A program made the translations under genes and the position numbers. Below the pieces are notes generated by a model, which made no database searches, had not been told where the DNA came from, and saw only the letters and a list, made by a program, of their open reading frames with translations. Of a DNA stretch of 64,000 nt, positions 2,991 through 64,000 are shown in pieces. Position 1 is the stretch's first letter. Each line of letters opens with the position of its first letter. This stretch comes from Amycolatopsis alba DSM 44262 (lineage in GTDB: Bacteria; Actinomycetota; Actinomycetes; Mycobacteriales; Pseudonocardiaceae), in contig NZ_KB913032.1 in NCBI RefSeq assembly GCF_000384215.1, forward strand, positions 3,923,665 through 3,987,664, read 5' to 3'.

Positions 2991-3077
2991 TCGCCTCTTG
3001 ACCTCACCTGCCCAGCCCCCCGCCCTTCCCTGGGGGCGGCCCCACACCCAGCGTATCGGGGGTATCGCTCAGGCGGG

Positions 3078-3121: not shown

Positions 3122-3178
3122 CTCAGGGCTACGGAGGCTTGAGGGGCCGGTTCGGGCGGGCAGGCGTGGTAGCGGCGG

Positions 3179-3231
3179 GTTGCGAAAGCCACTTTCGCAA
3201 CCTTGAACGTTGCGAAAGTGGCTTTCGCAAC
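3179..3231. repeat. Nested inverted repeat (two 23-bp hairpins, mutually reverse complementary)
   Basis: The first element (3179-3201) has 10-bp arms GTTGCGAAAG / CTTTCGCAAC around CCA. The second (3209-3231) has the same arms around TGG. Each element is a hairpin and the two are exact reverse complements separated by CTTGAAC, so the whole 53 bp can fold as two small stems or one long cruciform. There is no U-run, so it is not a classical terminator. Confidence 0.85.
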
Positions 3232-3380
3232 GTCCGGAGCGGGCAGGCGGCCGGGCACAAGCGTGAGCAGGGGGCAGGGCAGGCCGGAGGGACCCTTCAC
3301 CGCATCGCACGAGGCGAAGGCCTGAGGCCCACGCAGCCCAAGCCCACGCAGCCACGGGAAGCCAGGAAAGGGAACACCCG

Positions 3381-7300: not shown

Positions 7301-7636
7301 CGGAAAGCCTTGTACCAGGCCGTTCTCGAGGACGTCGAGCTCACCACGATGCTGGACAGCGCGGGCGCCGGGCTGTCGGGCGGGCAGGCGCAGCGGGTCG
7401 CGCTCGCGCGGGCCGTGCTCGGCGCCGCGCGAGCCGATCTCGTCCTGCTCGACGAACCGACAGCGCATCTCGACGAGCCCACGGCGAGGACCGTCCGTGA
7501 ACGGCTCGGCGAGGCACTCACCGGGAAAACCGTCGTCCACGTCACGCACAGCGCGGCCGAAGCCGACGGGGCCGACGTGATCCTGGAGGTACGAGAGGGC
7601 CGCGTCACAACGCGCGTACTGGCCGGAGCGGACTAA
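4385..7636 (+). CDS. cydDC: Single-chain CydDC-type ABC exporter for cytochrome bd assembly
   Basis: This is a heterodimeric-type thiol/haem exporter required for cytochrome bd maturation, here fused as one 1083-residue chain. The order is membrane domain 1 (about 35-320), ATPase 1 (Walker A Lys390 in PSGGGKST; signature LSQGQRQR; LLLDEPTAHLD), membrane domain 2 (about 555-840) and ATPase 2 (Walker A Lys918 in PSGAGKST; signature LSGGQAQR; LLDEPTAHLD). Both Walker B Glu residues are present, so both sites look intact. Mycobacteria encode cydD and cydC separately; the fusion resembles the streptomycete arrangement. The linker before ATPase 2 contains a 13-bp-arm inverted repeat (6961-6999). 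It overlaps cydB by 4 bases and shares TAATG with the kinase downstream. Confidence 0.95.
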   Translation: MTELPGRDTLSATESTMDPARPGKGPLGALAPLSSAARRALILSAILSFCNAVLLVGQAFLLADVLSAVVRGTMGDRTAQLAVLLALVAGRALTGWAVRIVSARAAARAKEELRAKALDHALKLGPEWIARRGHGELTSLTTKGLDALDAYFTQYLPALVTAAIVPLAAGAAILFADWPSAALVVITVPLIPLFAILIGKHTAERVAEAADAEQRLSGHLLELVRALPILSAFRRAEAQAETVRKISERHRRATLKTLKVAFASAFALELIATLSVALVAVVIGVRLVSGELPLAIGLGVLILVPECYQPLRAVGAAFHASEDGVEAVRRVADVLAEPLPPNGSETLGKGEIHVGGLRVVRRGGFAPDGETFSARPGEITWLRAPSGGGKSTTLAVLLGFVQAVDGTITVDGTSLDGADLDRWRENVAWVPQSPVFGGGTVRDEVGAEDILGELGLDGLADRPVSKLSQGQRQRVAVARALVRVRSGAWLLLLDEPTAHLDEANAGLVMAAVSRAVDNGAAAIIAAHERTSGVDISTGIAKEAVTTEERAETRPVPWRDLLQPRFFGGALLGAAALLAGVALTALSGWLIAKASQQPPILTLTVMIVGVRTFGLGRAGLRYLERLVTHDAAFRIAGSLRVRLWESLVRLGPARALRAGEEQRRLVGDTDTVRDLLPRVITPLIVVALVAAGAVAVQAAVLPEAGLALAAAVLVSAFAPLLALRAERRATSALAAGRRSVSAQVLSLFEAAAELIAYGTDKVRRRRIATTDAALTAEARRQAFGAGAADALIILATGAATVVSTGFAVSAVAAGALDPVLAPVVALVPLALAEVLSLLPPAAQHWDTLRQARLRLAACDERSVPGRFRKERTVHSGGGVRIRNADLGWPGTEHPVLTGVDLDIAPGTHVAVVGPSGAGKSTLVAALLGFLKPSRGEVAAPENVAWAPQEPMLVSTTVAENLRLAKPTASEADLRKALYQAVLEDVELTTMLDSAGAGLSGGQAQRVALARAVLGAARADLVLLDEPTAHLDEPTARTVRERLGEALTGKTVVHVTHSAAEADGADVILEVREGRVTTRVLAGAD
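6961..6999. repeat. Perfect 13-bp-arm inverted repeat inside cydDC
   Basis: ACGGTCCGTTCCT (6961-6973) and AGGAACGGACCGT (6987-6999) are perfect reverse complements around a 13-nt loop. The element encodes part of the poorly conserved linker between membrane domain 2 and ATPase 2 and keeps the frame open. A similar fragment, ACGGTCCTTTGCGGTCA, occurs just after the kinase stop (about 8803). This looks like a dispersed repeat caught inside a gene. Confidence 0.8.
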
Positions 7637-8796
7637 TGTCGATAGCGCTCATGGATCCCACGCTTGCCGCGCGCGCACTGTCCGCCGCCACCGAGATCAC
7701 CGGCACCGCCCTGTCGGGTGACGACCCTGGTGACGTGCTGGAGACCGTGGTCGCCCGCGCCGTCGAACTGGCCGAGGCCGACCTCGGTCTCGTCATGGTG
7801 CGCGCGGACGATGGCCAGGTGGTCGCCGAAGCCGCGCACGGGGCCGACATAACGGGACTTCGAGGACTGGCCTTTTCCGCCGATTCCGCCGCCGGACAGG
7901 TCGCCCGCGGCGGCGAACCCGTGGTCAGCGAGGATTTCACCGTCGATCCCCGCACGGCGCGGTTCGTCCCGCCGGAGCTCCAGGGCTTCGGGCCTTTCGC
8001 GGCATCGGCGTTCGGTGCGGGCGGGCGCGTCCTCGGCGCGCTCACCGTGTACCGGCGTCACGGCGGGGATCCGTTCTCCGCCAGCACGGTCGAGGTGCTC
8101 ACGGCCTTCGCGGCGCAGGCGGGCGTGGTGCTCGCGCTGGCGGAAGGCGCCAACGCCCGGCACCGCGTGACCCTTTACCAAGAGCGCGAACGCATCGCGC
8201 GTGAGCTGCACGACGTCATCGTGCAGCGGCTCTACGGCGCCGGGATGCAGCTCGACCGCGTCCGCAAGAACATGCGGAAGAGGTTCGCGCAGGCCGACGG
8301 CGTGCGGCTGTCCGAGGCGATCGACCAGCTCGACCAGACCATCGAAGAGATCCGCGGCACCGTACGCGCCCTGCGCAGCCCGGAACCGGCGAACGAGACG
8401 GTCATCGCCACCGACCTCGCCGAGTCCGCGCGGGGCGAGGTGCGTATCGCGGGTGAGCTGCTCGGCTACCCGCCGACCCTCGAACTGTCGGGAGAACTCG
8501 CCGACATCCCCGCCGAACAGGCGGACCACATCCGGGCCGCGCTCCGCGAAGCACTGTCCAATGTGGTCAGGCACTCCGGGGCGAGCGAGACCCGCGTGAC
8601 GCTCAGCCGCGACGTGGAAGGTGTCAAACTTCGCGTGCGGGACAACGGATCCGGGGTTCCGCAGGGGGTCGCCAAACGCGGTCTCCGTCATCTGGCCGAA
8701 CGCGCTACGACGTCCGGCGGGCGCTTTTCGATCAATTCGTCGCCGAGCCTGGGGACCTTGGTCGCCTTCGACGTTCCCCTCGATCAAACCGTGTGA
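7636..8796 (+). CDS. GAF-domain sensor histidine kinase, DevS/NarX-like (HisKA_3)
   Basis: This is a 386-residue cytoplasmic two-component kinase with an N-terminal GAF domain (about 30-165), the dimerisation/phosphoacceptor helix (ERERIARELHDVIVQRL, His192) and an HATPase_c domain with DNGSGVP and the N-box AALREALSNVVRHS. The LHDVIVQRLYGAGMQL segment closely resembles mycobacterial DevS/DosT. There is only one GAF domain, and the stretch around FVPPELQGFGPF lacks a His where I would expect the DevS haem ligand, so haem binding looks unlikely. No response regulator is adjacent; the best candidate is the DevR-like gene at 15809-16435. The start overlaps the cydDC stop (TAATG), suggesting a redox or oxygen-limitation role. 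Confidence 0.9.
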   Translation: MSIALMDPTLAARALSAATEITGTALSGDDPGDVLETVVARAVELAEADLGLVMVRADDGQVVAEAAHGADITGLRGLAFSADSAAGQVARGGEPVVSEDFTVDPRTARFVPPELQGFGPFAASAFGAGGRVLGALTVYRRHGGDPFSASTVEVLTAFAAQAGVVLALAEGANARHRVTLYQERERIARELHDVIVQRLYGAGMQLDRVRKNMRKRFAQADGVRLSEAIDQLDQTIEEIRGTVRALRSPEPANETVIATDLAESARGEVRIAGELLGYPPTLELSGELADIPAEQADHIRAALREALSNVVRHSGASETRVTLSRDVEGVKLRVRDNGSGVPQGVAKRGLRHLAERATTSGGRFSINSSPSLGTLVAFDVPLDQTV

Positions 8797-23543: not shown

Positions 23544-23843
23544 ATGGAAGCAGCAACCTGGCAAGTGCAGGACGCCAAGCAGCGGCTCAGCGAGCTGCTG
23601 CGCCGGGCCGTGGCCGAAGGGCCGCAGTTCGTCACCAAGCACGGGGAGGAGGTGGCCGTGGTGCTGGACATCGCGGACTACCGCAGATTGACCGGAGGCG
23701 GTGAAGCCGTCGATTTCAAACTCGTGCTCTCCGGCGAGTATCACCACCCCGAGTACGGGGAGGCACTGGCCGACGTGCTCGAAGAGATCGCCGCCGAACG
23801 CGCGGAGGATCTGCCGAGAGATGCCGTGGAGGTGAGCGGGTGA
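23544..23843 (+). CDS. Phd/YefM-family antitoxin
   Basis: The 99-residue protein has a Phd/YefM N-terminus (WQVQDAKQRLSELLRRAVAEGP, then FVTKHGEEVAVVLDIADYRRL), which folds as the DNA-binding dimer. The acidic C-terminal part would neutralise the toxin. It overlaps the PIN-domain gene by 4 bases (GTGA), the standard order antitoxin then toxin. There is no ribosome site, in keeping with a leaderless transcript. Confidence 0.9.
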   Translation: MEAATWQVQDAKQRLSELLRRAVAEGPQFVTKHGEEVAVVLDIADYRRLTGGGEAVDFKLVLSGEYHHPEYGEALADVLEEIAAERAEDLPRDAVEVSG

Positions 23844-24256
23844 GCTTTCTGCTGGACACGAACATCGTGTCCGAGGCTCGGCGCCGCACCCAGAACCCTG
23901 GTTTCGCCCGGTGGTGGGGCGGGGTGTCGTCGAGCAGGCTCTATTTGAGCGCGCTGACCGTGGGCGAGATCGAGAGGGGGATAAGCAAACTCAAGCATCG
24001 AGGAGACCAGGACCGGGAACGGGCGGACACGCTGGCCGAATGGCTGGCCGGGCTCACCGCGCAGTTCTCGGAACGGATCCTTCCGGTGACCGCCGATATC
24101 GCGGCCGAATGGGGCAGGCAGTACGCGCCGCGGAAAGTGCCGTCCGTCGACGGGCTGATCGCCGCGACCGCCCGTGTCCACGACCTGACCTTGGTCACCC
24201 GGAACCTCGCCGACATGGCCGGACTCGGTGCGCAGGTGCACAACCCGTTCGACTGA
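23840..24256 (+). CDS. vapC: VapC-family PIN-domain toxin
   Basis: This 138-residue PIN ribonuclease carries the acidic metal-binding residues Asp6 (LLDTN), Glu43 (TVGEIERG) and Asp105 (SVDGLIAATA), plus Asn123 (VTRNLADM). The family cleaves tRNA or rRNA when freed from its antitoxin. The GTG start overlaps the antitoxin stop. The domain is complete, so the system looks functional. It is followed at once by a small hairpin (24259-24273) and a block of tandem repeats. Confidence 0.92.
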   Translation: MSFLLDTNIVSEARRRTQNPGFARWWGGVSSSRLYLSALTVGEIERGISKLKHRGDQDRERADTLAEWLAGLTAQFSERILPVTADIAAEWGRQYAPRKVPSVDGLIAATARVHDLTLVTRNLADMAGLGAQVHNPFD

Positions 24257-49830: not shown

Positions 49831-49951
49831 GGTTAGAGGTTAGGCCTGGAAGCGCAGCTTCTCCGTTGAGGGCGGTGGCGGGGGCATGGATGGACTAGAG
49901 CGTCGTTGACCTGGGCGGATCCAGCCCGCCCGAGATCCGCCGAATGGCGTC

Positions 49952-49957
49952 TATACA
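49952..49957 (+). promoter_or_regulatory. Probable -10 element upstream of the first sugar module
   Basis: TATACA lies 32 bp before the aminotransferase ATG in otherwise GC-rich DNA. No good -35 is seen at 16-18 bp; TTGACC at 49906 is too far away. Confidence 0.35.
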
Positions 49958-49988
49958 CTTCGCCGGGTCCCCACGCAATGGGAGAGAT

Positions 49989-51119
49989 ATGTCAACGCAG
50001 GAACCTGTGGTCCTCGGTCAGCCGACCGTGGGCGAAGAAGAACTCGCTGCGGTAGCGGAGGTGTTCCGGTCCGGCTGGCTGGCCGGTGCCGGCCCCGCGT
50101 GCCGCCGTTTCGAGGAACGCTTCGCGAAGACCGTCGGCACCGCGCACGCCTTGACCACCAGCAACTGTGGGTCGGCACTCTTCCTCGGGCTGAGTGTGCT
50201 CGGCGTGAAGCCGGGCGACGAGGTCATCGTCGGCGACTACACCTTCCCCGCCACCGGCCACGCCGTGCTCCAGGCGGGTGCGACGCCGGTGTTCGCGGAC
50301 ATCCGCCCGGACGACTGGAGCGCCGACCCGGCGTCGATCGAAGCCCTGATCACCCCGCGCACGGTCGGCATCCTCGCCGTCGACGTCGCCGGGCAGCCGG
50401 GCGACTTCGACGCGTACCGCGCCATCGCCGACAAGCACGGCCTGTGGCTCTTCGAGGACGCCGCCTGCGCCGCGGGCGCGACGTACAAGACCCGCCCGGC
50501 AGGAAGCCTCGCCGACCTGGCCGCGTTCTCCTTCCACGGCCGCAAGGGCATCACCGCGGGCGAAGGCGGCGCGCTGGTCTCGGACCGCGAAGACCTCATC
50601 GCACGCGCGCGCAAGCTGCACACCTACGGCATCGAGCCCGCCATCACCCGCGAGGGTTCCGGCGCGCTGCCGATCCCGGAGTTCCACGAGCTGGGCTACA
50701 ACTTCCGGCTCTCGGACGTGCAGGCCGCGATCATGAACGTCCAGCTGGACCGCCTTCCGGACCTGCTCTCGGCCCGCCGTTCGGTGGCCAAGCGCTACCA
50801 CGAGGCGTTCGAAAACCTGCCCGGTCTCGACGTCCCGGTGGAACTGCCGGACCGCGAGCACCCGTGGCAGGCCTACATCCTCACCGTGGCCCCGGAGATC
50901 GATCGCGACGCGCTCGCGCTGCGGATCCGCGAGCAGGGCGTGCAGTGCAACTTCGGCACCTACTCCTCGCATCTCCAGCCCATCTACGGCAAGAAGCAGA
51001 CCTTGCCGGTTTCGGCGGACCTCTTCGCCCGTCATCTCGCCATCCCGATGCACGCCAACCTCACCGATGACCAGGTCGACCGGGTCATCGGGACCGTCAG
51101 CGCCGCACTGCCGAGCTAG
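49989..51119 (+). CDS. DegT/DnrJ/EryC1-family sugar aminotransferase (first copy)
   Basis: This PLP enzyme puts an amino group on a keto nucleotide-sugar. 376 residues: TSNCGSALFLGLSVLGVKPGDEVIV, VFADIRPDDWSADP, LFEDAACAAGATY (Asp to pyridine), and the Schiff-base Lys in SFHGRKGITAGEGGA. The C-terminal QGVQCNFGTYSSHLQPIY is typical of the family. ATG at 49989 follows GGGAGAG. Its active-site sequence differs from the second DegT enzyme at 58248-59354, so the two probably act on different sugars. First of four tightly spaced genes. Confidence 0.92.
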   Translation: MSTQEPVVLGQPTVGEEELAAVAEVFRSGWLAGAGPACRRFEERFAKTVGTAHALTTSNCGSALFLGLSVLGVKPGDEVIVGDYTFPATGHAVLQAGATPVFADIRPDDWSADPASIEALITPRTVGILAVDVAGQPGDFDAYRAIADKHGLWLFEDAACAAGATYKTRPAGSLADLAAFSFHGRKGITAGEGGALVSDREDLIARARKLHTYGIEPAITREGSGALPIPEFHELGYNFRLSDVQAAIMNVQLDRLPDLLSARRSVAKRYHEAFENLPGLDVPVELPDREHPWQAYILTVAPEIDRDALALRIREQGVQCNFGTYSSHLQPIYGKKQTLPVSADLFARHLAIPMHANLTDDQVDRVIGTVSAALPS

Positions 51120-51126
51120 GAGAGAA

Positions 51127-52056
51127 ATGCCCGACAAGAAGGTCCTCTTCACCGGGGGCGGCGGCTTCATCGCCGCGCACGTCATCCCGATGCTGATCGA
51201 GGGCGGCTACACCGTCCGCGTCTTCGACAACATGACCCGCGGCGACCGCGCCCGGATCAACGAGTTCGTCGCCACCGGCAAGGTCGAACTGGTCGAGAAG
51301 GACGTGCGCTACGGCGGCGCCGTGCGCGAGGCCATGCGCGGTTGCACCCACGTCATCCACTTCGCGACCGTGTCGATCAACAAGTCGGTCGCGGATCCGC
51401 ACGAGTCGATCGACATCAACATGGTCGGCAACCACAACGTCTTCGCCGCCGCGGCGGACGAGGGTGTCGAGCGGGTCGTGTTCGCTTCGACCGCGTCCGT
51501 CTACGGCGAACCGAAGCGGCTGCCGATGCACGAGGACGACGAGCTCAAGCCACTCACGCCGTACTGCATCTCGAAGCGCGCGGGCGAGGACATGCTCGGC
51601 TTCTACGAGCGCACCCAGGGCCTGTCCTGGAACGCGCTGCGGTTCTTCAACGTGTACGGCCCCGGCCAGAAGATCGAGGCCTACTACACGTCGGTGATCA
51701 ACCACTTCATCCAGCGTCTGCGCGCCGGCCAGCCGCCGATCATCGACGGCCGCGGCGACCAGTCGATGGACTTCGTGCACGTCACGGACCTGGCCCGCGC
51801 CGTCGTCGCGGCGCTCGAGTCGGAGCAGGCGAACCTGCCGATCAACATCGGCACCGGGATCGACACCTCGATCGCGACGCTGGCGAAGATCCTCATCGAC
51901 GCCGTCGGCGTCAACGTCGAGCCGCTGTTCAACGAGCGCGACGTGCTCGTTTCGCGGCGTGCCGCGGACATCACCCGTGCCCGCGAGGTCCTCGGCTGGG
52001 AGCCGAAGATCTCCGTGGAAGAGGGCATGCACGAACTGGTCAAGGCTTCGGAGTGA
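51127..52056 (+). CDS. NAD-dependent nucleotide-sugar epimerase/dehydratase
   Basis: The 309-residue extended SDR has the NAD-binding TGGGGFIAAHVIPMLIEGG near the N-terminus and the catalytic YxxxK in TPYCISKRAGED, with Ser in FASTASVYGE. Closest in look to UDP-glucose/GlcNAc 4-epimerases (NVYGPGQKIEAYYTSVINHF; IGTGIDTSIATLA). It may supply the 4-keto or 4-epimer sugar for the aminotransferase. ATG at 51127 lies 7 bp after the aminotransferase stop with GGAGAG upstream. Confidence 0.92.
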   Translation: MPDKKVLFTGGGGFIAAHVIPMLIEGGYTVRVFDNMTRGDRARINEFVATGKVELVEKDVRYGGAVREAMRGCTHVIHFATVSINKSVADPHESIDINMVGNHNVFAAAADEGVERVVFASTASVYGEPKRLPMHEDDELKPLTPYCISKRAGEDMLGFYERTQGLSWNALRFFNVYGPGQKIEAYYTSVINHFIQRLRAGQPPIIDGRGDQSMDFVHVTDLARAVVAALESEQANLPINIGTGIDTSIATLAKILIDAVGVNVEPLFNERDVLVSRRAADITRAREVLGWEPKISVEEGMHELVKASE

Positions 52057-52082
52057 GTGCCGGGCCAGGGGAGAGCCGCCCC

Positions 52083-53279
52083 ATGCGCATCGCGGTCGTG
52101 AACAACTTCTTCCCGCCGAGGGTGGGCGGAAGCGCGCACATGGCGGCGTCCCTGGCCGAGCAGTACGCGGCGCGCGGGCACGAGGTGCTCGCGATCACCG
52201 CGGCCTATGCCGACGCCCCGGCCGACGAGACGAAGGACGGCTACCGCGTCGTCCGCCTGCCCGCGGTGAAGATGCCGCAGCTGGGCCTGTCGATCGACTT
52301 CGACATGAGTTTCGCCTCGCTGCGGCCGGGGAACTGGCGGCGGCTGCGGAAGCTGCTGGACGAGTTCAAACCCGACGCGATCCACCTGCACGGGCAGTTC
52401 TTCGACCTGTCGTGGCTGGCCGGGCGGTACGCGCGGCGGCACAAGCTGCCGATGCTGCTGACCATCCACACGCTGCTGATCAGCGACAACAAGCTGTACG
52501 GCGGTGTCTTCCGGTTCCTGGACACCGTGCTGGTGAACCCGATCCTGCGCTACCTCAAGCCGCGGTACGTCATCCTCGACAAACTCGGGGTCGACTACTG
52601 CGTCGAGCGCTACGGCACCAGCGACGCGAACTCGGACTACTTCCCGATCGCCGTCGACACCGGGAACTTCGAGAAGCCGCTCACCCTCGATGTGCGGGCG
52701 GAACACAAGCTCGGCGACGGTCCGGTGATCGTCTCGCTCGGGCACGTGATCCCGCTGCGCAACCGGCTTCCGCTGGTCGAGGCGCTGCCGTCCATTTTGG
52801 ACAAGCACCCCGGCGTGAAGGTGGTCGTCGTCGGCCGCGTGTACCACGACGTCTTCCTGAAGCGAGCGGAAGAACTCGGTGTCGCGGACGCCATCATCGT
52901 CACCGGCGCCGTGCCGAAGGCGGACGTCCCCGCGTACTTCGCGGCGGCCGACATCGTCACGCACGACCTCAACGGCGGCTGCGGCACCGCTTCGCTGGAG
53001 GCGATGCTCTCGGGCACCGCGACCATCGCTTCGGTCACCGAGGACAACTATCCCGGCATCGAACTCCGCAACGGCGAGAACATCCTGCTGGTGCGCCCGG
53101 ACGACAGCGAGGCTGTGGCGAACACCGTCATCGAACTGCTCGACGACCCGGAAAAGCGGGCTTTGGTGGCACAGCGCGAAAGCGCGATGGTGCGGGCCAA
53201 CTTCGGCCTCGACGTCGTCGCGGAGGAACACCTGCGCACCTTCGAGAAACTGGTGACCGAGGCCGATGTTCTTCGATGA
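52083..53279 (+). CDS. GT4-family glycosyltransferase
   Basis: This 398-residue GT-B retaining transferase shows VVNNFFPPRVGGSAHMAASLA at the N-terminus (acceptor-side Gly-rich loop) and a donor-site region, CGTASLEAMLSGTATIASVTEDN, followed by GENILLVRPDDSEAVANTVI. The N-x-G-C-G-T sequence replaces the more common E-x-F-G-x-x-x-x-E spacing, but the downstream Glu of SLEAM is kept. ATG at 52083 follows GGGGAGAG. It overlaps the acyltransferase by 14 bp. Donor is presumably the sugar made by the two genes upstream. Confidence 0.9.
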   Translation: MRIAVVNNFFPPRVGGSAHMAASLAEQYAARGHEVLAITAAYADAPADETKDGYRVVRLPAVKMPQLGLSIDFDMSFASLRPGNWRRLRKLLDEFKPDAIHLHGQFFDLSWLAGRYARRHKLPMLLTIHTLLISDNKLYGGVFRFLDTVLVNPILRYLKPRYVILDKLGVDYCVERYGTSDANSDYFPIAVDTGNFEKPLTLDVRAEHKLGDGPVIVSLGHVIPLRNRLPLVEALPSILDKHPGVKVVVVGRVYHDVFLKRAEELGVADAIIVTGAVPKADVPAYFAAADIVTHDLNGGCGTASLEAMLSGTATIASVTEDNYPGIELRNGENILLVRPDDSEAVANTVIELLDDPEKRALVAQRESAMVRANFGLDVVAEEHLRTFEKLVTEADVLR

Positions 53280-53892
53280 CGAGCGCAGCAACCGGCTGCG
53301 CCCGCAGATCCTGACCGAACTCGTTTCGCAGTACATGAACGACGCCGAGCGCGCTCGTTTCTACGGGCTGCCGGAGTCGACGCGGGTCCGCGAACGGGTC
53401 AAGATCATCAGCCCGGAGAACCTCACGATCGGCGAACACTGCTGGATCGGCGAGGGCGCCGCGCTCGACGCGAGCGGTGGGCTGGAGATCGGCGAGCACA
53501 CCAGCATCGGCCTGAACACGCTGATCTTCACGCATTCCAGCTGGCTCGCGAACATGACGCTGCAGAACCACTCCGGCAGCGACCTCATCGAACGCAAGCC
53601 GGTGAAGATCGGCAAGGGCTGCTTCATCGGCGGCCTGGTCGTGATCATGGCAGGCGTGACGATCGGCGATTTCGCCACCGTGCAGCCGAACTCCGTGGTC
53701 GCCAAGGACGTCCCGCCGCGCACCCTGGTGGCGGGCAACCCGGCGCGTGTCTTCCAGCGCTACGACGACGAGTACATCCAGTCCGAAGTGGAGCGTGTGC
53801 GCGGCGAGAACGCGCGGCGGCGCGCGCTGGCGGAGGAGCGGGGGGACGCTTCTTCGTCCTGGGGCGCACCGGCAGGCGACTTCACGGAGTAG
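53266..53892 (+). CDS. Left-handed beta-helix (hexapeptide) O/N-acetyltransferase
   Basis: The 208-residue transferase has hexapeptide repeats (ISPENLTIGEHCWIGEGAAL; IGEHTSIGLNTLIFTHSSW; VKIGKGCFIGGLVVIMAGVTIGDFATVQPNSVV) and the end cap VPPRTLVAGNPARVF, with a charged C-terminal helix. Related to maltose/galactoside and polysaccharide acetyltransferases that use acetyl-CoA. It is translationally coupled to GT4, so it probably decorates the same glycan. Confidence 0.88.
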   Translation: MFFDDERSNRLRPQILTELVSQYMNDAERARFYGLPESTRVRERVKIISPENLTIGEHCWIGEGAALDASGGLEIGEHTSIGLNTLIFTHSSWLANMTLQNHSGSDLIERKPVKIGKGCFIGGLVVIMAGVTIGDFATVQPNSVVAKDVPPRTLVAGNPARVFQRYDDEYIQSEVERVRGENARRRALAEERGDASSSWGAPAGDFTE

Positions 53893-57291: not shown

Positions 57292-58251
57292 TCAGGCCGC
57301 GGCCTGCGTCAGCACCTGGTCGACGACGGCGTGCGAAGGCAGGATCAGGTCGCGCTCGGTGTCGGCGTCGATCTTGCCTTCGAGCAGCTCCAGGAACCGG
57401 TCCAGCTGGGTCGCCAGCGGCTCGCGCGCGGTGACCAGTTCCGGGATCTCGATGACGGTCTGCTGCCGGTAGCCGAGGCCGTCCGGGGTGACCGAGTCGT
57501 GCGAGACGTGCCGGTAGATGGTGACGTCGCGGCGGAGCAGGTCGATCTCGATCATGCGGTCCAGCTCGGACACCCAGAGCGAACGGACCTTGCGCTGCCC
57601 GAGGCGGGAAGCGGAAACCGTGGCGAGCCCAGACTCGAACGACAGCACCGTCTCGATGGTGTCTTCGGCGCCTTCGACCGAATTCGGGTGGAAGTAGCCG
57701 GCGCCGGAGGCGACCCGCTGCGGGGTCGCGCCGCCGAAGAACTGGATCGCCAGGTCGACGTCGTGCACCAGCAGGTCCCACGCGACACCGGTCTTGATGC
57801 GCGGCGCGTAGGGGCCGTGGCGACGGGCCATCAGGTGGATCGGCTCGTTGACCAGCGCCCGCGCGGTCATCACGGCCGGGTTGTAGCGCTCCAGGAGCCC
57901 GCACATCAGCGGGACGTCCTTCTTCGCCGACAGCGATACGATCTCCTTGGAGAATTCGAGGCTGTTGCAGACCGGCTTCTCGACCAGCAAAGGCTTGCCC
58001 TGGCCCAGGATCTCCTGCGCCAGCTCGTAATGCGCCTCGGTGGCCGAAGCGAGCACGACGGCATCCACATCGGACAGTGAGCCGATTTCGGGCGTCCACT
58101 GGGTTTCGTAGCGCTCGGCGACCTTGCGGCCCGCCTCTTCGCGCGGGTCGATCACGCGGACGAGGTCCACGCGCTCGTTCGCGGCGAGGACACGGGCGTG
58201 CAGCGAACCCATGTTCCCGGTGCCGATGAGGGCGATCTTGTGCGTCGTCAT
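57292..58251 (-). CDS. Gfo/Idh/MocA oxidoreductase, GnnA/WbpB-like
   Basis: The 319-residue NAD-dependent sugar dehydrogenase has a Rossmann start (IALIGTGNMGSLHARVLAA), ASATEAHYELA, and the family signature GKPLLVEKPVCNS with catalytic Lys. The C-terminal alpha/beta domain contains DLLVHDVDLAIQFFG, where the His is the usual active-site base. With the adjacent aminotransferase it forms the classic pair that oxidises and then aminates C3 of a UDP-sugar (GnnA/GnnB on UDP-GlcNAc, WbpB/WbpE on its uronic acid). Four-base overlap with the aminotransferase. Confidence 0.9.
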   Translation of the reverse strand: MTTHKIALIGTGNMGSLHARVLAANERVDLVRVIDPREEAGRKVAERYETQWTPEIGSLSDVDAVVLASATEAHYELAQEILGQGKPLLVEKPVCNSLEFSKEIVSLSAKKDVPLMCGLLERYNPAVMTARALVNEPIHLMARRHGPYAPRIKTGVAWDLLVHDVDLAIQFFGGATPQRVASGAGYFHPNSVEGAEDTIETVLSFESGLATVSASRLGQRKVRSLWVSELDRMIEIDLLRRDVTIYRHVSHDSVTPDGLGYRQQTVIEIPELVTAREPLATQLDRFLELLEGKIDADTERDLILPSHAVVDQVLTQAAA

Positions 58252-59354
58252 GCGCCGAGTACCTCGCGAACCGTTTCGATGATGGTGTCCAGATCGGACT
58301 CGGAAAGGTGCGGGTGCACCGGCAGCGAAAGCGCCTGCGCGGCGACGGAAGCGGCCACCGGGAAGTCCTCGACCTTCGCGTCGGGGATCAGCGGGTTGTT
58401 CCGGTAGCAGTCGTAGTCGAAAACGATCTTCGGGTAGTAGATCCCGTTGCCGATGCCCTTTTCGGTGAGGGCGGCGGCGAGTTCGTCGCGCGAGAGGAAG
58501 GCGTGCGGGCCGACCAGCACGGTGTACTGGTGCCACACGTGTTCACGGCCCGGCAGGACCTGCGGGATGTCGAGACCCGGCGTGCCGGCGAGGCCCTCGG
58601 AGAGGCGCTTCGCGTTGGCCTGGCGCGCGGCGGTGAGCTGGTCCAGCTTCTCCAGCTGCGGGATGCCGACGGCGGCGTGCAGGTCGGTCATCCGGTAGTT
58701 GTGCCCGGCGACCTCGTACTGGTACCGGGCGCGCATGCCCTGGTTGCGCAGCACACGCAGCGCGTCGGCCAGCTCGTCGTCATCGGTGGTGATGACGCCG
58801 CCCTCGGCGGTGGTGATGTTCTTGGTGGCGTACAAGGAGAAACAGCCGATCCCGAAGGAGCCGGCCTGCTTGCCCTCGAACGACGCGCCGACGGCCTGCG
58901 CGGAGTCCTCGATCACCTTGAGACCGTGCTCGGCGGCCAGCGGCGCGAGCTTGCCCATGTCCGCTGTCTGCCCGTAGAGGTGCACGGGCATCAGGACCTT
59001 GGTGCGGTCGGTGATCACGGCGGCGACGGCGTCGGGGTCGATCGCGAAGTCGTCGCGGCGGATGTCGGCGAAGCGGACGGTCGCGCCGGCTTCCAGGATC
59101 GCGTTCAGCGTCGCCACGAAGGTGAACGGCGAGGTGACGACCTCGTCGCCCGGTTTGAGGTCGAGCGCCTGGATGGCGGCGACCAGCGCGGTCGTGCCGT
59201 TGTTGACGGCGATCGCGTGCTTCGTGCCGGAAACGCTCGCGAACGCGTCCTCGAAGCGCTTGACCATCGGTCCCTGTGCGATGGCGCCGGATCGCAGCAC
59301 CTCGACGACGAGGTCCTCCGCGTCACGGACGTCGACCACGGTAATGGGGATCAT
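58248..59354 (-). CDS. DegT/DnrJ/EryC1 aminotransferase, GnnB/WbpE-like
   Basis: The 368-residue PLP enzyme has AVNNGTTALVAAIQALDLKPGDEV, VIEDSAQAVGASFEG (Asp to pyridine N) and the Schiff-base Lys in LYATKNITTAEGGVI. The C-terminal GIGNGIYYPK and LSLPVHPHLSESD are typical of the VioA/WbpE group that makes 3- or 4-amino sugars from UDP- or dTDP-keto sugars. ATG at 59354 is preferred; a longer frame to 59444 reads into the divergent promoter. It overlaps the oxidoreductase (ATGA), and the pair is divergent from the LpxA-like operon across 158 bp. Confidence 0.92.
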   Translation of the reverse strand: MIPITVVDVRDAEDLVVEVLRSGAIAQGPMVKRFEDAFASVSGTKHAIAVNNGTTALVAAIQALDLKPGDEVVTSPFTFVATLNAILEAGATVRFADIRRDDFAIDPDAVAAVITDRTKVLMPVHLYGQTADMGKLAPLAAEHGLKVIEDSAQAVGASFEGKQAGSFGIGCFSLYATKNITTAEGGVITTDDDELADALRVLRNQGMRARYQYEVAGHNYRMTDLHAAVGIPQLEKLDQLTAARQANAKRLSEGLAGTPGLDIPQVLPGREHVWHQYTVLVGPHAFLSRDELAAALTEKGIGNGIYYPKIVFDYDCYRNNPLIPDAKVEDFPVAASVAAQALSLPVHPHLSESDLDTIIETVREVLGA

Positions 59355-59512
59355 CTGCAAGTCTCTCTCGACTGGGCGTTCTGGTGCGTCCGGTACAGTG
59401 AGCCGCCGGTTCTGCGCCCGGCCGCCCTCTCTGGCGCGGGCCACACGTTACCGGGACCGCCGAAGCGCCCATTACCCCAGGCTGCCTCCCAGCCACGACG
59501 AACGGATCTCAC

Positions 59513-60244
59513 GTGGTGAACCGCATCCACCCGACAGCGATCATCGGCGAGGGTGTCGAGCTCGGCGAAGACAACGTCATCGGGCCGTACACGGTCATCG
59601 TGGGCCCCGCGCGCATCGGCGACGGCAACTGGATCGGCCCGCACGTGACCATCGGGACCCCCGGCGAGGACCGCGGCCGCGAACACCCCGCGGCCTGGGA
59701 ATCCGCGCCGAACGGTGATCCGGATCACGACGGCCACGGCGTCGTCATCGGCAGCCGCAACCGGATCCGCGAGTACGTCAGCGTCCACCAGGGCACCTGG
59801 CGCACGACCACGATCGGCGACGGCGGCTACTTCCTCCGCGGCTCCCACATCGCGCACGACTGCCTGGTCGAGGACGTCGTCACGGTCGCATCGAACGTCA
59901 TCACCGGCGGCCACTGCCACATCTGGTCCGGCGCGAACCTCGGCATGGGCGCGATCCTGCACCAACGGGTCGTCATCGGCCCCGGCGCGATGGTCGGGAT
60001 GAGCTCCGCGGTCCGCAAGGAGGTGGGCGCGTTCACCATCGCCGTCGGCAACCCCGCACGGGTGACAGGCGTCAATACCGTTGGGCTGTCCCGCCGCGGG
60101 CTGGACGAGGCCACCATCGAGGCCTTGGGACCGTGGCTGAAGGGTAAGGCCGGTCTCCCTGAGGACGGGCTGGCCGACCGGCTGCCCGGCGACCTCTCTA
60201 CCTTGGTGAAGGCGTGGGACGCCCGTCCACGCGACGATCATTAG
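59513..60244 (+). CDS. LpxA-like acyl-ACP-dependent nucleotide-sugar acyltransferase
   Basis: The 243-residue left-handed beta-helix enzyme is strongly LpxA-like rather than merely hexapeptide-like: IHPTAIIGEGVELG at the start, VIGSRNRIREYVSVHQGT (compare IGDRNRIRESVTIHRGT in E. coli), the active-site GSHIAHDC with His112 and His115, NPARVTGVNTVGLSRRG, and a helical C-terminal tail of about 45 residues as in LpxA. LpxA moves 3-hydroxyacyl groups from ACP to C3 of UDP-GlcNAc; with a 3-amino sugar the product would be an amide. Next is a dedicated ACP 10 bp on. Striking in a Gram-positive lineage lacking lipid A. GTG start. Confidence 0.88.
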   Translation: MVNRIHPTAIIGEGVELGEDNVIGPYTVIVGPARIGDGNWIGPHVTIGTPGEDRGREHPAAWESAPNGDPDHDGHGVVIGSRNRIREYVSVHQGTWRTTTIGDGGYFLRGSHIAHDCLVEDVVTVASNVITGGHCHIWSGANLGMGAILHQRVVIGPGAMVGMSSAVRKEVGAFTIAVGNPARVTGVNTVGLSRRGLDEATIEALGPWLKGKAGLPEDGLADRLPGDLSTLVKAWDARPRDDH

Positions 60245-60254
60245 GAGTACGGAC

Positions 60255-60494
60255 ATGGCGGAAGTCGCCGGCAAGCTGCGTGAGGTCTTCGTCGAGGCGC
60301 TGGACCTCGATGGCGAGGTCGACGTCGAAAACCTGAAGTACCGCGACATCGAGGCGTGGGACTCGGTCGGTCACATGGCGCTCGTCGCGGCCATCGAGGA
60401 CGAGTTCGATGTGGAATTCGACACCGACCAGGTGATCGACATGTCCAGCTTCAAGGTCGCCGTCGACATGGTCACCGACCTCCAGTCCAAGTGA
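60255..60494 (+). CDS. Dedicated acyl carrier protein
   Basis: The 79-residue acidic four-helix protein has the phosphopantetheine-attachment motif AWDSVGHMALV, Ser37. The sequence around it (WDSVGHM in place of the DSLxxVE of housekeeping AcpP) is typical of specialised carriers. ATG after AGGAGTACGGAC. It sits between the LpxA-like gene and the SDR, overlapping the latter as TGATG, so it most likely carries the acyl chain used by the cluster. Confidence 0.93.
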   Translation: MAEVAGKLREVFVEALDLDGEVDVENLKYRDIEAWDSVGHMALVAAIEDEFDVEFDTDQVIDMSSFKVAVDMVTDLQSK

Positions 60495-61219
60495 TGCTGG
60501 ACGGCAAGGTCGCCCTGGTCACGGGTGGTACCCGTGGCATCGGGCTCGCCACCGCGCGGGCGCTCGCCGAGGCGGGCGCCACCGTCGTGCTGACCGGTCG
60601 TGACGAGGCCAAGGCCAAGGAAGCGGCGGCCGCGGCGGGGGCCGCGAGCGGGCTCGCGCTGGACGTCACCGACGCCAAGGCCGTGTCGACGCTGGTCCGC
60701 GGCGTGGCCAAGGAGCACGGCAAGCTCGACATCGTGGTCGCCAACGCCGGGATCATGGAGGACGCGCTCCTCGGCATGATCCGCGAAGAGCTCGTCGACA
60801 CCACGCTGAGCACGAACGTCGCCGGCACGCTGCACACCGTCCAGGCCGCGGCCAGGGCGATGATGCGCAAGAAGACCGGCGCCATCGTCGTTCTCGCCTC
60901 GATCGTCGGTGAGCACGGAAGCGCCGGTCAGACGGTGTACGCGGCCTCGAAGGCGGCGGTGGCGAACATCGCGCGTTCGGCCGCGAAGGAACTCGGCCGC
61001 TCCGGGATCCGGGTCAACGCGGTGGCGCCCGGCGTCATCGACACTGACCTGACCTCGGGCCTGACCGAAGACGCGAAGGCCGAGAACATCGGCAAGACGC
61101 CTCTCGGACGGCTCGGGACGCCCGAGGACGTGGCGAACGCGATCCGGTTCCTCGTCAGTGATGACGCTTCGTTCATCACCGGCCAGGTGCTGGGCATCGA
61201 TGGAGGACTTGTTCTCTGA
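60494..61219 (+). CDS. Short-chain dehydrogenase, 3-oxoacyl-ACP reductase-like (FabG family)
   Basis: The 241-residue classical SDR has VTGGTRGIGLATARAL, NAGIM, catalytic Ser in VVLASIVGEHG, the YxxxK of TVYAASKAAVANIA, and PLGRLGTPEDVANAIRFLVS with GQVLGIDGGL at the end. It fits FabG-type 3-oxoacyl-ACP reductases using NADPH. Position after the ACP suggests it sets a 3-hydroxyacyl chain on that carrier. It overlaps both neighbours by 1 base (TGATG). Confidence 0.92.
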   Translation: MLDGKVALVTGGTRGIGLATARALAEAGATVVLTGRDEAKAKEAAAAAGAASGLALDVTDAKAVSTLVRGVAKEHGKLDIVVANAGIMEDALLGMIREELVDTTLSTNVAGTLHTVQAAARAMMRKKTGAIVVLASIVGEHGSAGQTVYAASKAAVANIARSAAKELGRSGIRVNAVAPGVIDTDLTSGLTEDAKAENIGKTPLGRLGTPEDVANAIRFLVSDDASFITGQVLGIDGGLVL

Positions 61220-62628
61220 TGACCCTTTTGGGTGTGGGTGCACGACTGATAGACGTCACGAGCGGCAAAACGCTCGCGGGCGAGGAGCTCGACGCCGAGG
61301 TCACCCGCGTGGGGGCCGCGCTGGGGCTGCTGCCGCCGGGCGCGCTGTTCGCGCGGATGTCGGTGGACCTCCCCAGCGTGCTGAACTACCTCGGCGCTTT
61401 CGAGGCGGGCCGCGCGATCGCGCTGATCGACCCGGCGCTCGACGCCGACGTCCTGGCGGGGCTCATCGAGCGTTTCCGCCCGGCCGCCGTGCTGTCCGCG
61501 CCGGACGCGCCCGCACCCGAGGGTTACGGCGTCTCCGACGGGCACTGGGTCCGGAAGTCCGCCGAAGGGGTCGAACCGCATCCGCATCTCGCGGTCCTGC
61601 TGCCGACCAGCGGTTCCACCGGAAATCCGAAGCTGGTCCGGCTTTCGCGCGGCGCGGTGTTCTCCAACGCCGACGCGATCGCGCAGGTGCTCGGCATCGA
61701 CCGCGACGAGGTCGCGCCGACCAGCCTCCCGCTGCACTACAGCTACGGCCTGTCCGTGCTGAACTCACACCTCGTCCGCGGCGCGACAGTGGTCATCGAG
61801 CCCTCCGGCGTGCTCGGACGCGGGTTCTGGGACGCGGTCAACGAGCACAAGGTCACCTCGCTCGCGGGCGTGCCGTACCACTACGAGATGTTGCGGCGTC
61901 TCAAGTTCGACCCGGCGAAGTACCCGACATTGCGCACGCTGACGCAGGCGGGCGGCAAACTCCGCGACGACCTCGTCGCCCAGTTCAACGACAAGATCCG
62001 CGAGGTCGGCGGGCGGATGTTCGTCATGTACGGGCAGACCGAGGCCGCCCCGCGGATGACCACCGTCCCGGCGGAACGGCTCGCGGAGAAGCTCGGCTCG
62101 GCCGGGCCCGCGCTGCCCGGCGGCTCGTTCGCTGTCCGGCGCGAGGACGGTTCCGAGACCAAGCATCCGAAGATCGTCGGCGAGGTCGTCTACCGCGGGC
62201 CCAACGTGATGATGGGGTACGCCGAAGACGAGGCCGGGCTGGCCGCGGGCGACGAGTACGGCGGCGTGCTGGCCACCGGCGACCTCGGCTACCTCGACGA
62301 GGACGGGTTCCTCTACATCACCGGGCGGTTGAAGCGGATCGGCAAGGTCTTCGGGAACCGGGTCAGCCTGGATGATCTCGAGCACGCCGTGCGTTCTGCT
62401 TCGGTGGGGATCGACGTCGTGGCCGCCGTCCCGGCCGGGGACAAGGTCGTCCTGTTCGCGGAGCTGCCGGAAGGCGACGGCGCCAAGGAGATCTGCAAGG
62501 ACGCCGCGAAGGCGCTGTCCGAGCGGCTGCACCTGCACACCAGCGGGTTCGACGTCCGCCCCATCGACACCGTGCCGCTGCTCGCCAGCGGCAAGATCGA
62601 CTACCGGTCGCTGGAGGCCCAGGTATGA
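61219..62628 (+). CDS. AMP-dependent acyl/aryl-acid ligase
   Basis: The 469-residue ANL-superfamily enzyme has the P-loop LLPTSGSTGNPKLVRLS, YGQTEAAPRM (A5), ATGDLGYLDEDGFLYITGRLKRIGKVFG (A7/A8) and the C-terminal catalytic Lys in LLASGKIDYRSL. It is shorter than fatty-acyl-CoA ligases in its N-terminal domain. It probably activates a carboxylic acid as the adenylate and loads it on the ACP. Coupled to the SDR (TGATG) and to the LuxE-like gene (ATGA). Confidence 0.9.
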   Translation: MTLLGVGARLIDVTSGKTLAGEELDAEVTRVGAALGLLPPGALFARMSVDLPSVLNYLGAFEAGRAIALIDPALDADVLAGLIERFRPAAVLSAPDAPAPEGYGVSDGHWVRKSAEGVEPHPHLAVLLPTSGSTGNPKLVRLSRGAVFSNADAIAQVLGIDRDEVAPTSLPLHYSYGLSVLNSHLVRGATVVIEPSGVLGRGFWDAVNEHKVTSLAGVPYHYEMLRRLKFDPAKYPTLRTLTQAGGKLRDDLVAQFNDKIREVGGRMFVMYGQTEAAPRMTTVPAERLAEKLGSAGPALPGGSFAVRREDGSETKHPKIVGEVVYRGPNVMMGYAEDEAGLAAGDEYGGVLATGDLGYLDEDGFLYITGRLKRIGKVFGNRVSLDDLEHAVRSASVGIDVVAAVPAGDKVVLFAELPEGDGAKEICKDAAKALSERLHLHTSGFDVRPIDTVPLLASGKIDYRSLEAQV

Positions 62629-63677
62629 GTGTGTTCACGCTGTCGCAGGCGGAGCGTGAGAAGCACCTGCTTCCGCAGCTCGCCGAGCTCACCGCGCACC
62701 ACCGCGAGAACTCCGAGGGCTATGAACGCATCCTCTCGTCGCTGGGTATCGCGCGGGACGCGGAGTTCGCCTCCATCGCGGACCTGCCGTGGCTGCCGGT
62801 GCGGATGTTCAAGACCCACGACCTGCGCAGCATCCCCGAGTCCGAGATCTTCAAGACGCTGACGTCCTCGGGCACCACCGGTGCGGGCGCGTCGCGGATC
62901 TACCTGGACAAGGCCGCCGCCGGCGCGCAGACCAAGCAGCTCGGTGCCACGCTGCAGGAAGTCCTCGGCAACGAGCGGCTGCCGATGCTGATGGTCGACA
63001 CGATCGGCATCATCAAGAACCGCCGCTCGTTCTCCGCGCGCGGCGCCGGTGTGCTGGGCATGGCGAACTTCGGCCGCAAGCACACCTACGTGCTCGACGA
63101 GAACGACCAGCCGGACGTCGAGGCGGTCAAGACCTTCCTCGCGACCTACGGCGACAAGCCGTTCCTGATCTTCGGCTTCACCTTCATGGTGTGGCAGTAC
63201 CTCTACGAGGTCGCGCGCGAGCACAAGCTCGATCTGTCCAACGGGATCCTGATCCACTCCGGCGGCTGGAAGAAGCTGATCGACCGCGCGGTGGACAACA
63301 CCGAGTTCCGCCGCCGCTTCAAAGAGGACACCGGCCTCACCCGGATCCACAACTACTACGGGATGATCGAGCAGATCGGCACCGTGTTCCTCGAAGGGCC
63401 TTCCGGGAACTCGCTGTACTGCCCCGATTTCGCGGATGTCGTGATCCGGAACCCGGAAACCTGGGAAGAGCAGCCGGTCGGCGAGCCGGGTGTGATCGAG
63501 GTCGTCAGCACCTTGCCGCATTCGTATCCGGGGCACGTCCTGCTCACCGAAGACCTCGGTGTCTACAACGGGATCGACGACGGCGACTGGCCGGGCAAGC
63601 ACTTCTCCGTCATGGGCAGGCTGCCCAAGGCCGAGGCCCGCGGTTGCTCGGACACCTTCCAGGGGGCGGCGGCATGA
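62625..63677 (+). CDS. LuxE-like acyl-protein synthetase
   Basis: The 350-residue protein matches the LuxE/PaaK-like adenylate-forming fold: LTSSGTTGAGASRIYLDK (ATP loop), FGFTFMVWQYLYEV, ILIHSGGWKKLIDRAVDN (GGWK, a LuxE hallmark), and IHNYYGMIEQIGTVFLEGP. LuxE activates a fatty acid and passes it to the LuxC reductase. The following gene is LuxC-like, so the fatty-acid reductase pair is complete, but no luciferase genes are in the window. Confidence 0.9.
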   Translation: MSVFTLSQAEREKHLLPQLAELTAHHRENSEGYERILSSLGIARDAEFASIADLPWLPVRMFKTHDLRSIPESEIFKTLTSSGTTGAGASRIYLDKAAAGAQTKQLGATLQEVLGNERLPMLMVDTIGIIKNRRSFSARGAGVLGMANFGRKHTYVLDENDQPDVEAVKTFLATYGDKPFLIFGFTFMVWQYLYEVAREHKLDLSNGILIHSGGWKKLIDRAVDNTEFRRRFKEDTGLTRIHNYYGMIEQIGTVFLEGPSGNSLYCPDFADVVIRNPETWEEQPVGEPGVIEVVSTLPHSYPGHVLLTEDLGVYNGIDDGDWPGKHFSVMGRLPKAEARGCSDTFQGAAA

Positions 63678-64000
63678 CTCTCAACCAGCGTTTTCCGCTC
63701 GGCGACGCGATCGAGGTCTCCTCGTTGGTCGACGAGCTGCGGGCCGAGCCCGTCGGCGGACGGCTGCGTGTGGGCGACCCGCGAGTCGTCGAGTTCCTGA
63801 CGAAGTTCGCGCGCAAGCTGCTCGCACCCGCGACGGCTCGACGTTTCCCGGAGCTGGCATCGCTCGGTTTCTTCCTGCGCAAGGGAGAAATCGCCAAAGC
63901 ATTGTCCACTTTGGATACTTCGGGTGACGCGCTGCGCTTCCCGCGCGGGCTCGTCTTCCACGTCCCGCCTGCCAACGTCGACACGATCTTCGTGTACTCG
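63674..64000 (+). CDS. LuxC-like acyl-CoA/acyl-protein reductase, C-terminus cut by window edge
   Basis: 109 N-terminal residues are visible: ELASLGFFLRKGEIAKAL, LRFPRGLVFHVPPANVDTIFVYS. This is the N-terminal region of the LuxC family, which reduces acyl thioesters to aldehydes with NADPH through a Cys further downstream (not in view). ATG overlaps the LuxE-like stop by 4 bases. It contains near its middle a variant (GTCCACTTTGGAT) of the GTCCA-N3-TGGAC palindrome. Confidence 0.85.
   Translation, partial: MTLNQRFPLGDAIEVSSLVDELRAEPVGGRLRVGDPRVVEFLTKFARKLLAPATARRFPELASLGFFLRKGEIAKALSTLDTSGDALRFPRGLVFHVPPANVDTIFVYS

Follow-up and report, generated by a model that had tools for sequence, protein, structure and literature searches.

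In Acidithiobacillus, Campylobacter and Leptospira, GnnA, GnnB and LpxA give rise to a lipid A with acyl groups amide-linked to GlcN3N. A second described system is that of Vibrio cholerae O1, where we take VC0248-VC0252 to be the genes named rfbKLMNO; the tetronate set presumably also comprises a LuxC part, an alcohol dehydrogenase and an acyltransferase, and we assume that its reductase is an iron alcohol dehydrogenase and that RfbN is a fusion. In the available text of the relevant papers, VC0248-VC0252 are assigned to the synthesis of tetronate (2,4-dihydroxybutyrate), RfbL is described as activating 2,4-dihydroxybutanoate, putatively onto CoA or the carrier RfbK (PMC3441752, PMC12208996), and a LuxE domain is noted in RfbN (PMC4772473). 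According to the accessible part of their description, Aeromonas Group II islands contain genes for an acyl carrier protein (ACP), a 3-oxoacyl-ACP reductase and an AMP-synthetase together with luxE and luxC, and in strain AH-3 these five genes lie downstream of pseH, a gene for a sugar N-acyltransferase (PMC7874193). The same text reports an unassigned pseudaminic-acid derivative of 376.14 Da and an unknown 102 Da moiety on the same glycan (PMC7874193). A liposugar component is suggested in the accessible parts of the papers on the Aeromonas and enterobacterial islands (PMC7874193, PMC4875605). Within the available text of the open PMC literature, we found neither a link between this cassette and a dihydroxybutyryl group in Aeromonas nor a description of it in actinomycetes, which does not prove absence.

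We analysed a window of 64,000 nucleotides from Amycolatopsis alba (the whole stretch of DNA under study), in which the preliminary description had named six genes at 57292..62628. All six are open reading frames at those positions, all were recovered by the gene-call script, and their families were matched in profile searches. On the minus strand, a GnnA-like Gfo/Idh/MocA dehydrogenase (57292..58251; match to that family), predicted to be a UDP-GlcNAc 3-dehydrogenase, is overlapped by 4 bases by a GnnB-like DegT/DnrJ/EryC1 aminotransferase (58248..59354; PF01041, 398 bits). The latter reading frame reaches 59444; because several GnnB-like orthologues begin with MIPIT, which corresponds to ~59354, the gene probably starts there. 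These two genes face a plus-strand operon whose members are separated by short gaps or overlap. Its first gene encodes an LpxA-like left-handed beta-helix acyltransferase (59513..60244; hexapeptide and LpxA C-terminal domain matches), followed by a dedicated ACP (60255..60494; PF00550, PP-binding), a FabG-like SDR reductase (60494..61219; PF13561; TIGR01830 at 247 bits, below its cut-off of 298) and an AMP-forming acyl ligase of 469 amino acids (61219..62628; PF00501; best NCBIfam match TIGR03098 at 167 bits, cut-off 592). An operon end at 62628 was not borne out. Two plus-strand genes that were absent from the earlier account of the module join the operon by overlapping ends: a LuxE-type acyl-protein synthetase (62625..63677; PF04443, 153 bits; NCBIfam LuxE NF052244, 61 bits, cut-off 550) and a LuxC-type acyl reductase (63674..64000, cut by the window end and complete in L003:1339-2580; PF05893, 111 bits). 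After LuxC, just beyond the window, the operon continues with a gene for an LPG_synthase_TM membrane protein. Also on the plus strand, a block at 49944..53892 encodes a second DegT aminotransferase, an NAD-dependent epimerase/dehydratase, a glycosyltransferase and a hexapeptide transferase; it is kept near the module in some relatives and may play a role in it.

Among solved structures, the oxidoreductase profile matched A. ferrooxidans GnnA best, at 135 bits, with the next structure at 112 and WlbA at 48. Against the archaeal UDP-GlcNAc 3-dehydrogenase model NF040723 it scored 141 bits, below the curated 450. This top match and the family assignments uphold the earlier view that a GnnA/GnnB/LpxA-like trio with its own ACP is present in an actinomycete. 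The aminotransferase can be assigned to the DegT family only, and the PDB and NCBIfam rankings leave its substrate classes unseparated. This is compatible with a sugar other than UDP-GlcNAc3N, either UDP-GlcNAc3NA (Wbp-type) or a dTDP-6-deoxy-3-amino sugar. Such a sugar also finds support in Pcryo_0615 (PDB 8e62), whose entry title describes an N-acetyltransferase acting on a diacetamido sugar of the 2,3-dideoxy type; a cited title gives this sugar as the glucuronic acid. We consider this alternative improbable. The statement that no other lipid A genes are seen holds for LpxC and LpxB, the two lipid A genes searched; neither PF03331 nor PF02684 had a match in the A. alba genome at E 0.001.

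The LpxA-like protein (243 amino acids) contains both motifs previously quoted as LpxA active-site signatures, one of them GSHIAHDC, and its C-terminal helical tail was confirmed as two predicted helices (199-209 and 228-237). It retains the E. coli LpxA residues H122, H125, H144, H160, Q161, N198, R204 and R205, but not K76 and N137. Across the LpxA-like group (34 rows, including the A. alba protein and its duplicate), H125, H160 and Q161 are present in every row, R204 and N198 in 33, H144 in 32 and H122 in 25; the second arginine of the R204-R205 pair occurs in just 13. At the acyl-length position, G173 in E. coli LpxA, the A. alba protein has a methionine, as do 32 of the 34 rows, and the other two have leucine. 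Going by inferred numbering, this methionine would be equivalent to Met169 of P. aeruginosa LpxA, which limits chains to 10 carbons according to the accessible text of PMC6820557.

The LpxA-like enzyme is near canonical LpxA but outside it in the best tree. Its best NCBIfam match is LpxA NF003657 at 174 bits, below the curated cut-off of 226; TIGR01852 gave 156 bits (cut-off 231), and the next match outside LpxA was NeuD at 84 bits. Canonical LpxA formed its own clade in the best tree (126 columns; support 99/95), although one clade uniting it with the LpxA-like group was not rejected (p-AU 0.163). Pcryo_0615 fell inside the LpxA-like group on a long branch, and its placement with canonical LpxA was likewise not rejected (p-AU 0.131). 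Pcryo_0615 is 36% identical to the LpxA-like model, compared with at most 35% for LpxA among the matches listed, and has the stretch LGMG...HQR...M.GM in common with the A. alba protein. Profile scores were 162 bits for the best LpxA, 140 for 8e62, 40 for WlbB (3mqg) and 36 for QdtC. Thus, the profile check proposed earlier put WbpD-type enzymes and QdtC far off, and we rejected them as nearest kin; a grouping with acetyl-CoA-dependent enzymes finds partial support in Pcryo_0615 and none in the distant WlbB. The LpxA signatures might be taken to point to lipid-A-type acylation. The Pcryo_0615 match and the tree position, with the alternatives not rejected, speak against that reading, and the presence of such motifs is not in itself proof of fatty acylation of the lipid A type. 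A simple lipid A reading was discarded on the tree position, the LpxA scores under cut-off and the lack of LpxC and LpxB matches.

The enzyme could instead be a plain acetyl-CoA 3-N-acetyltransferase that yields UDP-GlcNAc3NAc, with the cassette acylating another part of the same glycan. The identity, common stretch and tree grouping with Pcryo_0615, which we take to use acetyl-CoA, favour this alternative, whereas the other placement of Pcryo_0615 weakens it. So does the A. alba protein itself, which retains the tail helices and an R194-R195 pair, although the second arginine is not general.

Gene order around the cassette was counted automatically in the 80 best LuxE-bearing records. The order ACP-SDR-AMP-ligase-LuxE-LuxC was found in 76; among the remaining four, an overlapping ORF call breaks the order in L086, and no SDR was detected in the other three. 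The LpxA-like gene lies directly upstream of the cassette on the same strand in 61 of the 80, and these two counts rule out chance gene order. GnnA and GnnB are both within ~10 kb in 64. Even where GnnA and GnnB are not adjacent (L096, L101, L122 and L144), the LpxA-like gene directly precedes the ACP gene, and this recurrent position argues against a plain acetyltransferase. The WDS motif of the ACP and the cysteine of AAC.SPR in LuxC are invariant in 17 aligned sequences, as is the C-terminal cysteine of LuxE (RGC.DT) in alignments of nine and 17 sequences.

The cassette pairs with different amino-sugar N-acyltransferase types. Twelve of the 80 loci are without both GnnA and the LpxA-like gene, and nine of these have a nearby PseB, PseC, PseH or PseI match. 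The cassette adjoins a PseH-like gene in Ponticoccus and a NeuD-type gene in Deinococcus and Rhizobium. The PseB and PseI matches and the Deinococcus NeuD match are above curated cut-offs; every PseH match, the single PseC match and the Rhizobium NeuD match are below. The Rhizobium neighbour, recorded as LpxA, scored 153 bits with the NeuD model versus 50 with LpxA, and was rejected as an LpxA-like parallel. With the Ponticoccus LuxE as query, a protein search returned a wide family with no informative names.

This recurrence beside PseH-like and NeuD-type genes also bears on the possibility that a 3-hydroxy fatty acyl group of up to about C10, amide-linked to GlcN3N, anchors a glycolipid. It argues against such an anchor, as do the bulky methionine or leucine at the acyl-length position, the genome without LpxC or LpxB matches and the presence of LuxE-LuxC, for which we know of no evident role in making 3-hydroxyacyl-ACP from what is known of these families. 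We regard a lipid-A-like anchor as very unlikely.

We counted co-occurrence in 150 genomes of the family, as raw counts that include shared ancestry, with the lists taken as one draw and the cuts set after the lists had been seen. A close LuxE was present in 24 genomes, only where GnnA occurs, and 23 of them have the LpxA-like enzyme; three more distant LuxE (50-52%) fall outside the GnnA and LpxA-like lists. Strict dependence of the enzyme on the cassette was rejected, as 17 of the 40 genomes with the enzyme had no LuxE match at E 1e-40, six of them holding only a second LpxA-like subgroup by scores. In such genomes the enzyme must therefore use another donor. Strict dependence of the cassette on the enzyme was also rejected. 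In Lentzea and Umezawaea (L087, L088, L090 and L091) the cassette directly follows GnnB, and at three of these four loci an LpxA-like gene of a 44-48% subgroup is a few genes away; within the stretches examined, no LpxA-like gene was found in L087, L116 or L129. A gene alike in L116 and L129 sits between GnnB and the ACP gene, and the L129 copy matches ATP-grasp PRK12767 models at 90 bits, below the cut-off of 218. Thus, the cassette can stand without an LpxA-like enzyme nearby, and our guess is that an ATP-grasp ligase could form the amide another way. Both kinds of exception would fit a plain acetyltransferase; with the gene order weighed against them, we judge that alternative unlikely, yet still a serious rival.

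We lean towards the view that the product of the locus is a nucleotide-activated diamino sugar, 3-N-acylated with a short polar group. Judging from homology, UDP-GlcNAc would be oxidized at C3 by the GnnA-like enzyme and then aminated there by the GnnB-like enzyme, giving UDP-GlcNAc3N. We drew the roles of the cassette steps from general knowledge of the enzyme families and from what is assigned in V. cholerae. LuxE may activate a carboxyl group of a small dicarboxylate, which LuxC would reduce to an aldehyde and the SDR to an alcohol; malate would yield 2,4-dihydroxybutyrate. The AMP-ligase would then load the hydroxy acid onto the cassette ACP. Gene order, fold and catalytic residues suggest that the LpxA-like enzyme moves the acyl group from the ACP to the 3-amino group. 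Incorporation of the sugar into a glycan or glycolipid of the envelope might fall to the glycosyltransferases and the LPG_synthase_TM protein. As LuxE and LuxC are present, the acyl group likely shifts from a fatty acyl to a short hydroxyacyl. In our best reading, the N-acyl group is a short hydroxyacyl from the cassette ACP and not a lipid-A-like fatty acid; we infer the acyl identity, the donor and the final glycan.

A wider hypothesis, which we offer tentatively and with considerable doubt, is that the cassette is a general, so far unrecognized supplier of a four-carbon dihydroxyacyl group (C4H6O3) for amino-sugar N-acyltransferases. In Pseudonocardiaceae it might supply an enzyme derived from LpxA, whose product would be UDP-2-acetamido-2,3-dideoxy-3-(dihydroxybutyramido)-glucose. 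This compound would combine a lipid A sugar with an acyl group of the O-antigen kind and would serve an envelope glycan whose genes lie beside those for arabinogalactan. The masses reported for Aeromonas count in favour of our main reading as well. C4H6O3 has a mass of 102.032, compared with the 102 Da moiety of Aeromonas. Exchanging one acetyl of the Pse5Ac7Ac residue (316.127) for C4H6O3 gives a computed 376.148, compared with the reported 376.14 Da, although C4H6O3 could also stand for isomers, O-methylglyceroyl among them, and a value of 376 would result from other C2H4O2 additions too. Our reading would replace the vague ‘liposugar’ label by something specific that can be predicted, namely a short hydroxyacyl produced through LuxE-LuxC chemistry, and would tie to genes the flagellin masses that are in print without explanation. 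A further prediction is that Amycolatopsis and its relatives make a new sugar nucleotide.

Each known system thus resembles a part of this locus. By gene list, and as far as the available texts go, the flagellin glycosylation island of Aeromonas (orf1-3, luxE, luxC) has the same five gene types as the A. alba cassette in the same listed order, and the enterobacterial islands (PMC4875605) have the same five types; unlike A. alba with its GnnA and GnnB, both carry sugar genes for pseudaminic acid. The V. cholerae O1 tetronate genes, compared by gene type only and from partial texts, share a carrier protein, a 2,4-dihydroxybutanoate ligase and a LuxE domain with the cassette, but that set acts on perosamine, and the A. 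alba reductase is an SDR instead. Pcryo_0615, at 189 amino acids, has a much shorter tail than the LpxA-like protein. The lipid A route has the same three enzyme types, with the LpxA fold and catalytic residues, whereas in A. alba the best tree sets the acyltransferase apart from canonical LpxA, LpxC and LpxB have no match and a short-chain acyl cassette is added. In this soil actinomycete and its relatives, the cluster probably unites a lipid A sugar pathway with an acyl-making set known from flagella and O-antigens.

All six genes named in the preliminary description are present in the window (G000:C1:3923665-3987664, in an actinomycete genome of 9.8 Mb), and the genes run on beyond the operon end that it had given. 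Among named organisms, close relatives of its proteins come from Amycolatopsis. The GnnA-like (57292-58251) and GnnB-like (58248-59354) genes lie on the minus strand and oppose a plus-strand operon that starts at 59513 with the gene for the LpxA-like enzyme. The additional genes of this operon encode LuxE (62625-63677), LuxC (from 63674; the whole gene is 1339-2580 of the genomic locus L003) and an LPG_synthase_TM protein (2615-3586 of L003). Farther downstream are what appear, by their sequences, to be arabinogalactan genes: glf, galactofuranosyltransferase, UbiA and DprE1/DprE2. Elsewhere in the window (23565-24256), a small gene pair resembles, by eye, a Phd/YefM-type antitoxin and a PIN-domain toxin.

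The ACP, SDR, AMP-ligase, LuxE and LuxC genes form one unit. A LuxE profile of nine rows, the first from the actinobacterial locus L076, was run against the genome_contigs collection, and we used the best 80 of 477 relatives. Because all 80 loci are actinobacterial by title, the cassette counts are biased to actinobacteria. Among these best 80, counted automatically, the five genes stood in the order ACP-SDR-AMP-ligase-LuxE-LuxC in 76, and in one further locus (L086) the order was broken merely by an overlapping ORF call; the SDR was undetected in three. An LpxA-like gene was found in 65 of the 80, and in 61 it immediately preceded the ACP gene; GnnA and GnnB were both within ~10 kb in 64. The genes are real, and their association is strong.

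No LpxA-like gene was found in 15 of these best 80 of 477 loci, and 12 of the 15 (Actinomadura, Nonomuraea, Actinoplanes, Dactylosporangium and others) also lacked GnnA. Scans of neighbouring genes took in 11 of the 12 (L159 was left out). In nine, a neighbour matched PseB, PseC, PseH or PseI; the PseB matches (four loci) and PseI matches (two) exceeded the curated cut-off, and those to PseC (one) and PseH (four) fell below it. In L145 and L158, a neighbour scanned in each gave no hit. The other three loci (L087, L116 and L129) kept both GnnA and GnnB. In two Amycolatopsis loci, other genes lie between GnnB and ACP in place of the LpxA-like gene (L129, 5826-7522; L116, 5892-7534). The L129 protein scores 90 bits with ATP-grasp (PRK12767) models, whose cut-off is 218; by eye, L116 carries a similar gene in the same slot, and in both an apparent HAD hydrolase follows. 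It is possible that these two genes replace the acyl-transfer step.

Three plasmid records carry the cassette with other acyltransferases. In Deinococcus, the cassette is in order and a NeuD-type acetyltransferase follows; in Ponticoccus, a PseH-like gene follows LuxE and LuxC is displaced to the other strand; in Rhizobium, the gene order differs and the acyltransferase, named LpxA in the record, is of NeuD type. The same acyl cassette thus accompanies amino-sugar N-acyltransferases of three kinds: LpxA-like, PseH-like and NeuD-type. In L076/L080, from an actinobacterial MAG (2-8108), a flagellin gene (PF00669) adjoins the LpxA-like, ACP, SDR, ligase, LuxE, LuxC, GnnB and GnnA genes, which suggests a flagellin-glycan version of the locus.

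Judged from sequence, the proposed mechanism, in which the LpxA-like enzyme would act as a 3-N-acyltransferase on UDP-GlcNAc3N, is plausible. We somewhat favour the transfer of a small hydroxyacyl group from the cassette ACP onto the diamino sugar; the poorly kept R205 (E. coli LpxA numbering), L087 and the ATP-grasp slot weigh against it. The alternative is a plain acetyl-CoA-dependent 3-N-acetyltransferase, and the distribution bears on it. We surveyed 150 family genomes, taking the LpxA-like, GnnA and LuxE searches as drawing the same genomes. The LpxA-like list held 48 genomes at E 1e-15, reduced to 40 by a 165-bit cut set after a gap was seen. GnnA (E 1e-60) occurred in 41 and both in 37. 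Of the 24 genomes with a close LuxE, every one is also on the GnnA list and 23 are on the LpxA-like list; three further genomes, on neither list, have a LuxE that is more distant (50-52%). These co-occurrence counts reflect shared ancestry and carry no valid p-value. Phylum-wide, the LpxA-like enzyme matched at E 1e-20 in 5 of 396 genomes, the window's own included. No LuxE match was found in 17 of the 40 family genomes with the LpxA-like enzyme (for example, those of L040, L042 and L067). These 17 would need another acyl donor, and this keeps acetylation alive as an explanation.

Other LpxA relatives were also seen. A truer LpxA occurs in other Pseudonocardiaceae (272 bits in L059, cut-off 226), with LpxD beside it (315 bits in L064 and 324 in L059, cut-off 207; by eye in L063); these regions span L059 8486-10355, L063 9706-12163, and L064 10455-12235 plus a preceding LpxA-like match. 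LpxC (PF03331) was above cut-off in five of nine Pseudonocardiaceae genomes searched, in two pieces in one of the five, and LpxB in none of the nine. Together, LpxA, LpxD and LpxC make up the first half of the lipid A pathway, here in actinomycetes. In a second LpxA-like subgroup (L052-L058, 42-48% identity), all seven rows read YVAHD, with Tyr at the position of E. coli H122, and H125 is kept. In the GNPA motif, Val or Ala replaces Asn in five related cassette-free rows (L040-L043, L067), and most cassette-bearing rows have Asn. As the cassette-free rows L048, L049 and L051 also keep Asn, the replacement probably reflects lineage, not function. The locus L081 (JOAA01000035.1), titled Rhodococcus rhodnii, has the arrangement of Kibdelosporangium and is possibly from a mislabelled assembly.

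With the formula that we take Pse5Ac7Ac to have, its computed residue mass is 316.127, and replacing one acetyl with C4H6O3 gives 376.148; the acyl of 3-deoxytetronate (2,4-dihydroxybutyrate) is C4H6O3 too. We hold this specific composition only tentatively. According to excerpts of PMC7874193, the glycan of A. piscicola AH-3 includes a 376.14 Da derivative of pseudaminic acid as well as a 102 Da moiety of unknown nature, the fgi-1 mutant of AH-3 retains the 376 Da sugar, and the Figure 2 legend colours the cassette genes apart from those deleted in the larger mutant. In these excerpts, the five cassette genes are also listed for the Group II flagellin glycosylation islands of Aeromonas, in AH-3 downstream of pseH, and excerpts of PMC4875605 describe the same gene types in several enterobacterial islands; both suggest a liposugar component. 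In V. cholerae O1, as excerpted, VC0248-VC0252 are assigned to tetronate (PMC3441752), 2,4-dihydroxybutanoate is activated by RfbL, with CoA or the carrier RfbK as the putative acceptor (PMC12208996), and a LuxE domain is present in RfbN (PMC4772473). The likeness of the Aeromonas islands and the V. cholerae genes to the cassette is at the level of published gene types and assignments. By this analogy, the Aeromonas mass match and the V. cholerae tetronate assignment both point to a C4 hydroxyacyl as the acyl of the cassette, a mass that isomers or other C2H4O2 additions would fit equally.
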